Shown here: positions 27,472-33,043 of the stretch, piece after piece
Layout: each line of letters begins with the position of its first letter
Numbering within the stretch: position 1 is the stretch's first letter
Assembly: GCF_000013385.1 (NCBI RefSeq)
Contig: NC_007760.1
Location: 3,322,001-3,386,000 of the forward strand
Length of the DNA stretch: 64,000 nucleotides
Source: Anaeromyxobacter dehalogenans 2CP-C
GTDB taxonomy: Bacteria; Myxococcota; Myxococcia; Myxococcales; Anaeromyxobacteraceae
Direction: 5' to 3'
Translations under genes and position numbers: made by a program
The notes under the pieces: generated by a model
Databases searched by the model: none
Seen by the model: the letters and a program-made list of their open reading frames with translations, nothing else
What the model was told of the DNA's origin: nothing

Positions 27472-29442
27472 CTACCGCATCGACACCTTCTTCGGCGCCT
27501 TCGCGCCCACCACGTCGAGCGCGCCCTGCGCCAGCACCTGCGCCTCCTTCACCTTCTCGATGGTGTACCTCGGCGCGTGCACGCCCGACGACCCGTCGGC
27601 CGCGACGGTGTCGAGGATGGCCTGCGCCTGGTTCGCCATGAGCGTGGCCTGGCCGAGCCTGGCCGGCGGCAGCTTCGCCTTGGCGATGGCGGGGCGCGCC
27701 GCGTCGAGCAGCCGCTTCGCCTCCGCCACGCCCTGCTTCACCGGGTTCTGCCACCCCATCAGCCGGTCGTAGATCTGCTGCTGGTTGGTGAAGTGCAGGT
27801 CCTTCGAGAGCTCCGACCGCGTCGGGCTGTGGCAGCCGCCGGCGCTCTCCAGGTCGTCGTCGCCCCAGCTCGTCCGGCCGCAGGCCCACATCAGGTCCAC
27901 GAACGGCTTGCCGTCCTTCTTCGCGAGGCGCCACGCGCCTTCCTTCCAGTTGCGGTCCTTCCCCGGCGGCGGGTCGAGCGTCTTCGCCTTCGGGTCCACC
28001 AGGATCTTGAAGATGTGCGAGGTGCGCTGCGTGTCGAAGCCGGCCAGGTCGGTGTACTGGATGGCCCCGAAGTTCTCGCAGCTCATCATGCTCGGCATGT
28101 GGCAGCTCGAGCACTTGTTCGCGCCGTGGACGTCGTTGTGGACGAACATGGAGGCCTGCGCCTGGTGGCAGTCCTGGCACTGCTTCTTCAGGCCCGGCAC
28201 GGTGACGCGCTCGCGCCAGTCGTTCGCGGTCACCTCGTGCGGATCGTGGCACGTGGAGCAGGTCATGCCCGACTCCCAGTGCGCGGTGTAGTAGGCCTGC
28301 GAGCCCTCGGTGCCGCAGGACGGGCAGCGGCTCTTGAAGTAGGCGTTGAACGCCTGGCGCGGATCCCTGGCCGCCTCGTCGGCGTTCCAGACGAAGCGCT
28401 GGTGGCAGCGCTCGCAGTTGGAGGACGCCGAGGCGCGCGCGCCCATGAGGTGCGCGCCCGCGCCGTGGCACTCCTCGCAGCTGATGCCCTTGTTGATGGT
28501 GTGCTTGCGCAGCTCCTCCGGCTTGCCCAGCGCCTGGATCAGCTCCTCCTGGCTCTTGAAGTCGAACTTGAACGAGTGGCACACCTCGCAGTACGCGGTG
28601 GCCGGCTGGAACATCATCGACTTGCGGTTCTTCGAGCCGTAGGACGTGAGGCCCCAGGTCTTGCTGCCGTTGTCTCCGAAGTCCTCGAGCTTGGTCGGGA
28701 AGCCCGGGACCCAGGACGCGATCTGCTTCGCCACCTCGGGCGTGAGCGACTCGGCCCAGGTGCGGGAGTGCTGGTTGCCGCCCGCCACCAGCGTGCCGGT
28801 GCCGTCGCGGAGCAGGCCGCCCTCGACGTGGTAGGTGCCGCGGACCAGCCACGCGTCCAGGAAGCCGTACTTCGTGCGCGGCGTGCCGATGATGGCGTAG
28901 ACCGCGTCGGGCGTGATGCCCGGCGGCAGGATGGGCGCCTCGCCGAACTGCGGCTTGGTCAGGTCCTTCGTCTCCACCATCTCGTCGGGGAACCGGACCA
29001 CCAGGTTGTGGCGGGAGCGCTTCCACTTCTCGTACTGCGCGGGGTGGCACTCGCCGCACTTCTTCGACCCGACGAACTTGTTGGGCAGGTCGAGGATCGA
29101 CTCCTGGCCCAGGCGGTAGGTGATCGAGGCGTGCTCGCCGGTCTTCTCGGCGTAGGCCTTGCCGCCGCCGAACTCGACGAACTCCTCCTCGCGGTCGCTG
29201 ATCGTGTACTTGCCGACCAGCCGGCCGTCCTTCTCGTACTTGAAGATGGGGTGGACCTTCCTCAGGTGGTCGTAGAACGCCTTCTCCTGCTCGACGTAGC
29301 CCTGGAGCGTGCGCGGGGAGCCAGAGGCCGCCGGCGCCGCCGGCTTGGCCTCCTTCTCCGCCGCGGAGGCCGGGGTCGTCACCGCCGCCAGCGCGAGCGC
29401 CATCGCCGCGGCGCCCGCCCTCGCCATCCACGTGGATTGCAT
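27472..29442 (-). CDS. Octahaem cytochrome c, MccA (sulfite reductase)-like
   Basis: This 656-residue exported protein has a signal peptide cut near TTPASAA. It has seven CXXCH haem sites: CGECH (129-133), CEVCH, CEECH, CERCH, CSTCH, CQDCH and CSSCH (444-448). It also has an eighth site of unusual spacing: Cys521, then Cys537-His538, which is CX15CH. Seven CXXCH plus one CX15CH is the pattern of MccA, the octahaem haem c-copper sulfite reductase, about 690 residues in Wolinella. Free cysteines in CPSCG and MSCENF are candidates for copper or structural roles. MccA reduces sulfite to sulfide in the periplasm. No mcc partner or dedicated haem lyase gene is adjacent. A different octahaem reductase is possible. 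Confidence 0.82.
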   Translation of the reverse strand: MQSTWMARAGAAAMALALAAVTTPASAAEKEAKPAAPAASGSPRTLQGYVEQEKAFYDHLRKVHPIFKYEKDGRLVGKYTISDREEEFVEFGGGKAYAEKTGEHASITYRLGQESILDLPNKFVGSKKCGECHPAQYEKWKRSRHNLVVRFPDEMVETKDLTKPQFGEAPILPPGITPDAVYAIIGTPRTKYGFLDAWLVRGTYHVEGGLLRDGTGTLVAGGNQHSRTWAESLTPEVAKQIASWVPGFPTKLEDFGDNGSKTWGLTSYGSKNRKSMMFQPATAYCEVCHSFKFDFKSQEELIQALGKPEELRKHTINKGISCEECHGAGAHLMGARASASSNCERCHQRFVWNADEAARDPRQAFNAYFKSRCPSCGTEGSQAYYTAHWESGMTCSTCHDPHEVTANDWRERVTVPGLKKQCQDCHQAQASMFVHNDVHGANKCSSCHMPSMMSCENFGAIQYTDLAGFDTQRTSHIFKILVDPKAKTLDPPPGKDRNWKEGAWRLAKKDGKPFVDLMWACGRTSWGDDDLESAGGCHSPTRSELSKDLHFTNQQQIYDRLMGWQNPVKQGVAEAKRLLDAARPAIAKAKLPPARLGQATLMANQAQAILDTVAADGSSGVHAPRYTIEKVKEAQVLAQGALDVVGAKAPKKVSMR

Positions 29443-29656: not shown

Positions 29657-30613
29657 CTACCCGGCCGCCTGCGCGTCCAGCCACACCTCGAGGCCCTGGG
29701 CGTTCAGGTCGAGGTCCACGCCGAACAGCTCCAGCGCGGCGGCGCGATCGAGCGGCGCGCCGTGCGCGGCCAGCCCGCCGAGCAGCTGCCCGGCGAGCGC
29801 GTCGCGCAGCGCCGCGTGGCGGCCGGGCCCGGCGGGCGCCGCGCGCGCCAGGCGCACGTGCTCGTCGAGCGCGCGCGCCAGCGCATCGGCGTGCCGGGCG
29901 ACGTCGCCCTCCAGCATGCCGTAATGGGTGAGGTAGACGCGCTCCGGCGCCTCGGCCAGCATGCGCGCGAGCGTCGCCTTCAGCGCGGGCGGATCGAGCT
30001 GCACCGGCGTGGTGGTGGGGAACAGGAACGGGCCGCGCGCGGAGTCGGTCTCGCGGTAGGAGATGCCGAACGCGTCGCCGGTGAAGAAGCCGCGCGAGCG
30101 CGGGTCGTGGAGCACGAGGTGGTGCTTCGCGTGCCCGGGCGCGTCCAGCGCGCGCAGGGGGCGGTCGCCGAGGTCGAGCGTGAAGCCGTCCGGCGCCTCG
30201 ATCACGCGCTCGGCCGGCGCCGGGACCACCTCGCCGTACAGCGCGCGGACGCGCTCGGCGCCGTACACCTCCGAGGCGCCAGCCATCAGCTTCGACGGGT
30301 CGATCATGTGGCGCGCGCCCCGCGGGTGGACGACCAGGCGCGCGCGGGGCAGCGCGCGCAGGAGCGCGCCGGCGCCGGCGGCGTGGTCGAGGTGCACGTG
30401 CGTCACCACGACGTGCGACACGTCCTCCGGCCGGAGGCCGGCCGAGGCCACGGCCTCGAGGACGCGCGGCACGGACCCGGCGGTCCCGGTCTCGACCACC
30501 GCGGCCGCGTCGCGGCCGCGCACCAGGTACGCGGCCGCCAGGCGCGGCCGGACGTAGCCGGTGTCGATGAGGTGGACGCCGGGGGCGATCTCGCGGGCGG
30601 GCTCGAGGGTCAT
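29657..30613 (-). CDS. MBL-fold metallo-hydrolase
   Basis: This 318-residue cytoplasmic hydrolase carries the metallo-beta-lactamase motif HVHLDH (His72, His74, Asp76, His77). Further metal ligands lie in VVHPRGARH and DAPGHAKHH, then a GDAFG aspartate and a late LTHYG histidine, so a binuclear zinc or iron site is complete. The overall layout resembles MBL proteins such as hydroxyacylglutathione hydrolase-like or lactonase-like enzymes; the substrate is unknown. ATG 30613 was chosen because the next upstream ATG adds residues unlike the fold. The extra 100 C-terminal residues are helical. It is divergent from the structured RNA region. Confidence 0.85.
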   Translation of the reverse strand: MTLEPAREIAPGVHLIDTGYVRPRLAAAYLVRGRDAAAVVETGTAGSVPRVLEAVASAGLRPEDVSHVVVTHVHLDHAAGAGALLRALPRARLVVHPRGARHMIDPSKLMAGASEVYGAERVRALYGEVVPAPAERVIEAPDGFTLDLGDRPLRALDAPGHAKHHLVLHDPRSRGFFTGDAFGISYRETDSARGPFLFPTTTPVQLDPPALKATLARMLAEAPERVYLTHYGMLEGDVARHADALARALDEHVRLARAAPAGPGRHAALRDALAGQLLGGLAAHGAPLDRAAALELFGVDLDLNAQGLEVWLDAQAAG

Positions 30614-30746
30614 GGGTGCGGGCTCCGGGGAGGATGGTCGTCCAGCGTAGCGCATCGCCGCGCCGCTGCGCGCCGGCGCGCACCCGGCGCCCACACCAGG
30701 CGCAGCCCTGCGATTTCACGAGGGGTCATGAGCCCCCTAATGGGCG

Positions 30747-30775
30747 TTGAGCCGGACCCGCAGGATCGCCACGAT
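30747..30775 (+). promoter_or_regulatory. Candidate sigma-70 promoter for the structured RNA
   Basis: TTGAGC (30747-30752), a 17-base spacer and CACGAT (30770-30775) form a weak promoter. It would start transcription near 30782, just ahead of the folded region. The -35 matches 4-5 of 6 positions and the -10 about 3 of 6. Confidence 0.4.
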
Positions 30776-30781
30776 GCGAGG

Positions 30782-30940
30782 TGAAGCACGCAGCACCTTC
30801 CAAGGAGGTCGCATAGCAGCGGAGCAACTGCAGGACACATCGAATGCAGTCGAGGCCGGGTGAGCCGGCCGCACGCTCGCGATGACGAGCTACCAGCAAG
30901 GTGAATCGAAGGGGCCCGGACCAGTGGGCCCCTTCGGCTT
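30782..30940 (+). ncRNA. Probable structured RNA or cis-regulatory leader with terminator
   Basis: No frame in this 423-base gap (30614-31036) looks coding, yet the sequence folds neatly. CACCTT (30794-30799) pairs with AAGGTG (30898-30903) to close a multibranch loop. Inside it are ACTGCA/TGCAGT (30827-30850), GGCCGG/CCGGCC (30854-30870) and GCTCG/CGAGC (30875-30890). An 11-bp terminator stem follows. A plausible promoter precedes it. It could be a free small RNA or a riboswitch-type leader for the gene at 31037. I do not recognise it as RNase P, tmRNA or SRP RNA; 6S RNA was not excluded. Confidence 0.5.
30907..30940 (+). terminator. Intrinsic terminator of the structured RNA
   Basis: A perfect 11-bp stem, CGAAGGGGCCC with GGGCCCCTTCG, has an 8-base loop (30918-30925) and is followed by GCTTTCC. 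The short T run is on the + strand side only, which fixes orientation. It ends about 100 bases before the start at 31037. Confidence 0.7.
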
Positions 30941-31036: not shown

Positions 31037-33043
31037 ATGAAGACGCTCGGCCGCCTCGCCGCGGCGCTCGCCCTCCTCGCCGCCGCCGCGCAGCCCGCCG
31101 GCGCGGCGGCACCGACCCGTGCGGCGGCGCCCGCCGCGGACGAGGGCGCCCGCGCGCGGCTCGACCGCGCCGCGCTCGAGCTCGGGCTCCCGCTGCACTG
31201 GCGCGCCGACGCGAACCGGAACGGCGCCATCGACCCCGCGGAGCTCGCGCTCGTGTTCGGCCTGGACGACCTGCCGCGCGACCACTGGGTCCGCCGCGGC
31301 CGGTTCACCCCGGCGTTCCGGGCCGCCTGGGCGCGGGTCGAGGCCCGGGCCTCCGCGCCGGCGGCCGAGCCCGCCGGCCCCGACGCGGCGCGCCGGACGG
31401 CGCTGGCGCGCGAGCTGTCGCAGCGGCTGTTCGCGGTGGTGGAGTCGGATCTCGCGGACCTTCGCCCGGCGGAGCGCGAGATGCTCCGCCACCTCGTGGA
31501 CGCGGCCCGCGTCATCGAGCGCCTGAGCGCGCGGCAGCTCGGCACCCTCGGCATGGCGGCGCGCATCCCGCCTGGCGACGGCGCCTCCCGGCTCGCGTTC
31601 CTGGTGAACAAGGGGCCGTGGTGCACCGCGCCCGCCACCGAGGGCGATCCGGCCTGCGGCGCGCTCTCGCCGGTGCCGCCGCGCCGCTCCGGCCTGTACC
31701 CCGCCGACCTGCAGGCGGACGCGGGCTTCTGCGCCGGGCTGGCGCGCGCGCCGGACGCGGCCGCGCTCACCAGCCCGTTCACCGCGGTGGTGCGCGACGC
31801 GCGCGGCGGGCTCGCGGCGGTGCCGTATCCGAAGGCCTGGCCCGAGGACATGGAGGCGGTCGCCCGCGCGCTGGAGCGGGCCGCCGCCGCGATCCGGGCG
31901 ACCGACGAGCGGGCGCTCCACGCGTACCTGCTGGCGGCGGCGCGCGCGTTCCGCGACGGCGGCTGGGAGCGCGCCGACGAGGCCTGGGCCAGCATGAACG
32001 CCGAGAACTCCCGCTGGTTCCTGCGGGTGGCGCCCGACGAGACGTACTCGGATCCGTGCGCGCTGAAGGCCGGCTTCGAGCTCGCGCTGGCGCGCATCGA
32101 CCCGGGCTCGCTGGCGTGGCAGCGGCGGCTCGAGCCGGTGAAGCAGGACATGGAGGTGGCGCTGGCGCGGCTCGCGGGCCCGCCCTACGCGGCGCGTCCG
32201 GTCGCGTTCCACCTGCCGGACTTCATCGCCATCGTGCTGAACGCCGGCGACGCGCGCTCGCCCCGCGGCGCCACCGTGGGCCAGTCGCTGCCGAACTGGG
32301 GGAAGGTGGCGAACGAGGGCCGCGGCCGGACCGTGGCGATGACGAACTTCTACACCGACCCGGAGAGCCTCGAGATCCGGCGCCGGCGCGCGGCCTCGGT
32401 CCTCTGCCCCGACACCATGGCGCGGCGCACTCCGGATCCGGACGCCGAGCGGATGGGCTTCGTCCTGCACGAGGCGGCGCACAACCTGGGCCCGTCGCAC
32501 GAGTACGCGGTGGAGGGCCGGACCGCGCCGCAGATCTTCGGCGGGAACCTGGCCGCCATGCTGGAGGAGCTGAAGGCGCAGCAGAGCGCGCTGTACCTCG
32601 CCGGCTGGCTGGCGGGGCGCGGCGTCATCTCGCCCGCGCAGGCGGAGCGCGCGCTCCTCGAGAACGTGGTCTGGGCCTTCGGCCAGGTGAGCGGAGGCGT
32701 CCGCACGTCGGACGGGCGGCTGCGGCCGTACGCGGCGCTCGCCGCGATCCAGCTCGCCGCGCTCGCCGACGACGGCGCGCTGGTGTGGCGCCCGGCCGCG
32801 AAGGCCGCGAACGGCGAGGACGAGGGCTGCCTCGAGCTCGACCGGGCGCGGCTGGGCGCGTCGGTGGAGCGGCTCGAGGCGCTCGCGCTCGGCATCAAGG
32901 CGCGCGGCGACCGGGCCGCGGCGGAGGCGCTGGTGCAGGCGCACGTGGACGCCGCCGGCGGGAAGAACGCCGAGATCCGGCGCGCGATCACCGAGCGCTG
33001 GCGGCGCTTCCCGGACACGACGTTCCTGTACGCCACCCCGTGA
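31037..33043 (+). CDS. M49-like zinc metallopeptidase, exported, with EF-hand-like loop
   Basis: This 668-residue protein has a signal peptide (residues 1-24). An EF-hand-like calcium loop, DANRNGAIDPAE, lies near residue 55. The C-terminal half resembles dipeptidyl peptidase III (family M49): LPNWGKVANEGRGRTVAMTNF, then HEAAH (478-482), then EEL (510-512) in MLEELKAQQSALYLAGWL. M49 enzymes use HEXXGH with an EEC/ARAE-type glutamate ligand; here one residue is missing, giving HEXXH. It would be a periplasmic exopeptidase with an altered metal site. GGAG precedes the ATG. A structured RNA and terminator lie upstream and may regulate it. Confidence 0.65.
   Translation: MKTLGRLAAALALLAAAAQPAGAAAPTRAAAPAADEGARARLDRAALELGLPLHWRADANRNGAIDPAELALVFGLDDLPRDHWVRRGRFTPAFRAAWARVEARASAPAAEPAGPDAARRTALARELSQRLFAVVESDLADLRPAEREMLRHLVDAARVIERLSARQLGTLGMAARIPPGDGASRLAFLVNKGPWCTAPATEGDPACGALSPVPPRRSGLYPADLQADAGFCAGLARAPDAAALTSPFTAVVRDARGGLAAVPYPKAWPEDMEAVARALERAAAAIRATDERALHAYLLAAARAFRDGGWERADEAWASMNAENSRWFLRVAPDETYSDPCALKAGFELALARIDPGSLAWQRRLEPVKQDMEVALARLAGPPYAARPVAFHLPDFIAIVLNAGDARSPRGATVGQSLPNWGKVANEGRGRTVAMTNFYTDPESLEIRRRRAASVLCPDTMARRTPDPDAERMGFVLHEAAHNLGPSHEYAVEGRTAPQIFGGNLAAMLEELKAQQSALYLAGWLAGRGVISPAQAERALLENVVWAFGQVSGGVRTSDGRLRPYAALAAIQLAALADDGALVWRPAAKAANGEDEGCLELDRARLGASVERLEALALGIKARGDRAAAEALVQAHVDAAGGKNAEIRRAITERWRRFPDTTFLYATP

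Follow-up and report, generated by a model that had tools for sequence, protein, structure and literature searches.

The window analysed here is a stretch of 64,000 nucleotides of Anaeromyxobacter dehalogenans 2CP-C (NC_007760.1, positions 3,322,001 to 3,386,000 of the forward strand), to which all coordinates refer unless another contig is named. A candidate small-RNA gene lies on the plus strand in the gap that separates an MBL-fold hydrolase gene from the gene starting at position 31037. The features of the locus are as follows.

29657-30613, minus strand: MBL-fold hydrolase gene.
30728-30775, plus strand: conserved upstream block, read as a putative promoter and defined by the highest-scoring gap-free alignment of the upstream sequence of the window with its A. 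oryzae and A. oryzisoli counterparts.
30731-30745: imperfect GC dyad GCCCCCTAATGGGC, directly upstream of the candidate -35 element.
30747-30752 and 30770-30775, plus strand: candidate -35 (TTGAGC) and candidate -10 (CACGAT) elements, separated by a 17-nt spacer.
30782-30940, plus strand: predicted transcript of about 155-160 nt, its start placed from the position of the -10 element and its end from the 3' hairpin.
30794-30903, plus strand: structured core, comprising the P1 closing stem, an irregular P2 and a three-way junction (P3) with hairpins P4 and P5, based on fold z score, matches of covariance model R2 and pair counts.
30794-30799 with 30898-30903, plus strand: P1 closing stem, CACCTT/AAGGTG, with two-sided changes in three of six pairs.
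30802-30809, plus strand: AAGGAGGT block, invariant in all five homologues and complementary to the usual anti-Shine-Dalgarno sequence of 16S rRNA.
30822-30825 with 30875-30878, plus strand: P3 junction stem, GAGC/GCTC, both paired strands being seen in the sequence.
30828-30832 with 30845-30849, plus strand: P4 hairpin, CTGCA/TGCAG, with loop GGACACATCGAA and a stem invariant in all five homologues.
30854-30859 with 30865-30870, plus strand: P5 hairpin, GGCCGG/CCGGCC, with loop GTGAG and one double change.
30907-30917 with 30926-30936, plus strand: perfect 11-bp GC-rich hairpin, CGAAGGGGCCC/GGGCCCCTTCG, at the same place and with similar sequence in all five homologues.
31037-33040, plus strand: gene designated metallopeptidase.

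The product of the last gene had no Pfam or NCBIfam match. It resembles dipeptidyl-peptidase III (5zum, E 2e-21) and contains an HEAAH motif and, near the N terminus, the EF-hand-like sequence DANRNGAIDPAEL; it is possibly a secreted M49-like enzyme. A multihaem cytochrome gene (Cytochrome_C7, MtrC/MtrF-like) is located two genes from the RNA, at 27472-29442 on the minus strand.

The closing stem, the three internal stems and the 11-bp hairpin described in the initial annotation are all present, with the sequences listed above, on the plus strand of the window. The minimum free energy of the core was -46.3 kcal/mol, in comparison to -34.8 +/- 3.6 kcal/mol for dinucleotide shuffles, corresponding to a margin of 11.5 kcal/mol over the shuffle mean and a z score of -3.2, with 1 of 200 shuffles folding equally well or better. 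Taken alone in a GC-rich genome, this score would be no more than suggestive of structure. Folding of homologues led to z scores of -4.3 and -4.1 with the architecture of the window core. The loop of P4 is large, conserved and mostly unpaired in predicted ensembles, with a length of 12 to 16 nt, the sequence GGASACATCGA and weak inner pairing of 2 bp in the ensembles predicted for the A. oryzae and A. oryzisoli copies; we propose that it forms a contact surface. In the latter two copies, the P5 loop is a GCAA (GNRA) tetraloop.

Homologues were detected in five of nine Anaeromyxobacter genomes, as a single copy in each. Besides the window genome, the RNA is present in strain PSR-1 (G001) and in G004, with 97% and 95% identity, respectively, and with the same neighbours as in the window; copies about 70% identical occur in A. 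oryzae Red232 (G006) and A. oryzisoli SG63 (G003), at another location and with other neighbours. The RNA was not found in the Anaeromyxobacter genomes G002, G005, G007 and G008 or in the rest of the family and class (147 genomes), and a DNA pattern derived from all copies, run against 84,980 species genomes, recovered only Anaeromyxobacter and two chance matches. Searches of plasmids and phages revealed no match to the RNA. With default filters, a covariance model derived from the two distant copies alone (R1) failed to detect the copy in the window; switching the filters off gave a weak match, and two further models, R2 and R3, were built in consequence. R2, which derives exclusively from the three near-identical copies of the window clade, matched the copies of A. 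oryzae and A. oryzisoli with E values of 8e-9 and 1.3e-8 (16 kb, filters off). Several other matches were rejected: pattern matches in Rhizobiales and gammaproteobacterial contigs had no fold and were apparently coding, weak R3 matches at G000 C1:564603 and in G029 fell within apparent coding sequence, a CCAAGGAGGTCGCAT match in G017 consisted of a Shine-Dalgarno sequence and a start codon, and a viral contig fitted a loose pattern but not the covariance model.

The Rfam covariance search named no known family, with no match at gathering score over the window and, in the gap at E<=10, one meaningless microRNA match (E 4.7). ARAGORN detected no tRNA or tmRNA in the window. These results bear out the failure of the initial annotation to match the RNA to RNase P, tmRNA or signal recognition particle RNA. 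A literature search by title and abstract retrieved no paper on small RNAs of Anaeromyxobacter. The RNA very probably belongs to a known kind, the small regulatory RNAs, of which it would form a new family of narrow distribution.

Comparison of the copies indicates that the fold is kept and that compensatory changes have occurred in it, in agreement with the expectation that the stems would be conserved in relatives. On the R2-based alignment, 98.5% of the pair cells were standard pairs, versus 18 to 45% when the 3' partners were slid. Two-sided changes affected three pairs of P1 (C-G to G-C once and U-A to A-U twice) and one pair of P5 (G-C to A-U). In helix 3, another three pairs seemed to change on both sides; these were not counted, since the GAGC/GCUC sequence is the same in both clades and the changes result from the register of the alignment. 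Because there are only three distinct RNA lineages, the covariation rests on four pairs. Within the window clade, the 110-nt core differed by one substitution from the copy of G001 and by none from that of G004 (99 to 100% identity), in comparison to 82 to 85% identity for the 3' noncoding gap and 90 to 96% for the 5' gap, the segment limits used for this comparison being one base off the final core coordinates.

The initial annotation also proposed a promoter-like pair and a strong terminator. Both regions are conserved across homologues, but a consensus scan called neither a terminator nor a sigma-70 promoter at the locus. All three lineages share the same base at 20 of the 48 columns of the upstream block, versus a mean of 13.1 and a maximum of 16 in 40 shuffled sets. 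The block ends in CACGAT, CACAAT or CAAGAT in the three lineages, the counterparts of TTGAGC being TCGACC and TGGATC. The counterparts of the GC dyad are GCTCCAACGGGGGC in A. oryzae and GCTCCGATGGGGGC in A. oryzisoli; the dyad is possibly an operator and may bind a regulator. Downstream, the 11-bp hairpin is followed by a short T run (GGCTTTCC) rather than a classical T tract, which accounts for the scanner calling no terminator, and it is a probable intrinsic terminator lacking a long T tract. The hairpin of the RNA is not unique, as counting by register gave eight cases of perfect hairpins of at least 11 bp in the 64-kb window. Support for the hairpin and the promoter parts thus comes from conservation, of hairpin position in the homologues and of the promoter region in a fixed register.

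These results favour an independent small RNA with a length of about 150-160 nt. Our preferred interpretation, to which we assign a probability of roughly 0.6, is that the locus is a stand-alone small-RNA gene with its own promoter and hairpin terminator, whose product would act in trans through pairing of the P4 loop to mRNAs. Transcription, the start site, action in trans and action by base pairing are what we infer from the sequence comparisons.

Two readings had been offered for the locus, an independent small RNA and a riboswitch-type attenuator of the gene at 31037, and the data separate them. The fold, the two-sided changes, the upstream block, the 3' hairpin and the changed neighbours speak for the former. 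An element within the 5' leader of this protease gene would be consistent with the arrangement of the window clade, in which 31037 lies on the strand of the RNA, about 100 nt past the hairpin. However, A. oryzae and A. oryzisoli carry the RNA and no homologue of 31037 was found in either (E <= 0.001), whereas G002 and G007 carry 31037 orthologues and lack the RNA. Nor does A. oryzisoli have the MBL gene, for which A. oryzae shows no more than a distant match at superfamily level. The RNA therefore persists without these neighbours, A. oryzisoli having neither of them and A. oryzae having neither 31037 nor a close MBL homologue. In these two species, the RNA and a long gene for a multihaem c-type cytochrome (L083:7350-9707 and L084:7028-9238) are oriented divergently. 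Beyond its 3' end lies a convergent ribokinase-like gene in A. oryzae and a cas3-like gene on the same strand in A. oryzisoli, both named by reading the translations, with no family search. There is thus no fixed neighbour gene: A. oryzae and A. oryzisoli have other neighbours than the dehalogenans-like clade, and this change, together with the convergent gene of A. oryzae, indicates that the RNA is not tied to a downstream gene. The stretch between the RNA and 31037 is, in addition, the least conserved (82 to 85%). The attenuator proposal is contradicted by the two species with the RNA and no gene and the two genomes with the gene and no RNA, and we regard it as very improbable. The cytochromes of L083 and L084 contain doubled CXXCH repeats and are DmsE-like; the window genome has only partial matches to them, with 39 to 44% identity.

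The main competitor of mRNA pairing is a stand-alone RNA that binds or sequesters a protein, or is part of a ribonucleoprotein, which we consider unlikely but worth weighing ahead of the other alternatives. The compact fold, the invariant P2 and P4, the GNRA-type loop, the lack of Hfq in the genus and the similarity of AAGGAGG and CAGGA to CsrA-type GGA sites fit this explanation; the absence of CsrA from the nine genomes, the existence of a 6S gene elsewhere and the lack of another known partner count against it. Docking on 30S subunits through the invariant AAGGAGGU, as a ribosome-binding or decoy RNA, would exploit a perfect 8-nt complement of the standard anti-Shine-Dalgarno sequence, and no start codon is present at ribosome-binding spacing 3' of AAGGAGGT (30802-30809). 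In all three predicted ensembles, however, GGAG and the next UC of the AAGGAGGU block are mostly paired in P2, and conservation of the block may reflect P2 membership only; this explanation is as improbable as the attenuator. A short protein, such as the 29 residues encoded from ATG 30774 to TGA 30863, has in its favour an open frame that crosses the conserved region and a similar local peptide (QGG-I-E) readable in A. oryzae and A. oryzisoli. It is very hard to reconcile with the lack of a start codon common to the clades, with the overlap of the ATG and the candidate -10 element, and with frame-shifting indels of 1 and 4 bases within otherwise invariant sequence (AA versus AAA before CTGCAG and 4-nt differences within the P4 hairpin and 3' of it), the stems being kept. 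Equally implausible is the proposal of a mobile or repetitive element, or of a GC-rich fold arisen by chance: the patchy distribution and the two unrelated locations in one genus would suit it, but the RNA is single-copy, has no plasmid or phage match, and displays zero or one substitution over its 110-nt core among near relatives, the clades differing by two-sided changes. We finally give a small chance, below that of protein binding and above that of the remaining alternatives, to a lineage-specific RNA with an unrecognised job, for example a ribosome-docking or ligand-sensing junction RNA that would expose or hide AAGGAGGU and the P4 loop, in trans and without Hfq or CsrA.

Among known systems, the Pxr small RNA of Myxococcus xanthus and relatives comprises three consecutive stem-loops, has a sigma-54 promoter and adjoins pxrR, and the papers describing it report that hfq homologues are missing from myxobacteria (PMC5684412, PMC5568312). 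Neither paper mentions Anaeromyxobacter (PMC5684412, PMC5568312). Like Pxr, the present RNA is a small intergenic noncoding myxobacterial RNA restricted to one lineage of Hfq-free hosts, and it combines conserved stems with a conserved loop, the importance of the loop for function being established for Pxr. It departs from the published description of Pxr in its three-way junction, which a closing stem encloses, and in its neighbouring genes. It shares with 6S RNA (RF00013) a similar size, a closed stem and a stand-alone gene, but its fold is branched, whereas 6S RNA is one long bulged rod; identity with 6S RNA was rejected, there being no Rfam match at the locus and a 6S match of the genome's own at C1:1202618-1202808. 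The GGA motifs, one of them in a hairpin loop, recall CsrB/RsmZ-type sponge RNAs, from which the RNA differs in conserving only two GGA sites in a genus without CsrA. The arrangement of the locus, an intergenic multibranch fold with a terminator-like hairpin on its 3' side, is reminiscent of transcription-attenuating riboswitches, but there is neither a conserved downstream gene nor an Rfam riboswitch match. Searches for Hfq and for CsrA were negative in all nine Anaeromyxobacter genomes, the control genomes being matched in both cases, and an Hfq-dependent small RNA and a CsrA sponge were rejected on this basis.

Anaeromyxobacter is a metal-reducing, dehalogenating genus, and the lack of Hfq and CsrA makes its small-RNA regulation a question. 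An RNA gene that is single-copy, delimited and under strong constraint offers a handle for deletion or probing. Since it has remained one unit in two different genomic contexts, the RNA also provides a case for the gain, movement and loss of lineage-specific RNAs within a genus. If its mechanism is ordinary, it would be one more Rfam-type family.

The lack of Hfq and CsrA in the genus makes a self-stable, trans-acting RNA, which Pxr also appears to be, the best model. According to this model, transcription would run from the promoter at 30728-30775 to the GC hairpin terminator at 30907-30936, and the closed stem and three-way junction would give the RNA stability without Hfq. Two surfaces, both invariant and single-stranded, would be exposed by this fold: the loop of P4 (GGASACAUCGA) and the CCAA linker between P1 and P2. 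The RNA would then act in trans, the P4 loop pairing with target mRNAs and altering their translation or stability. A search for an 11-mer complementary to the P4 loop revealed no site common to both RNA-bearing clades, leaving the base-pairing step without target support; one match was uninformative, G000 and G004 being identical over the region concerned. In these two genomes, 800 bases are 100% identical between L164 (G000:C1:4153526) and L157 (G004:C1:4182367), in comparison to about 89 to 92% identity around the RNA, reflecting either recent exchange or strong constraint.
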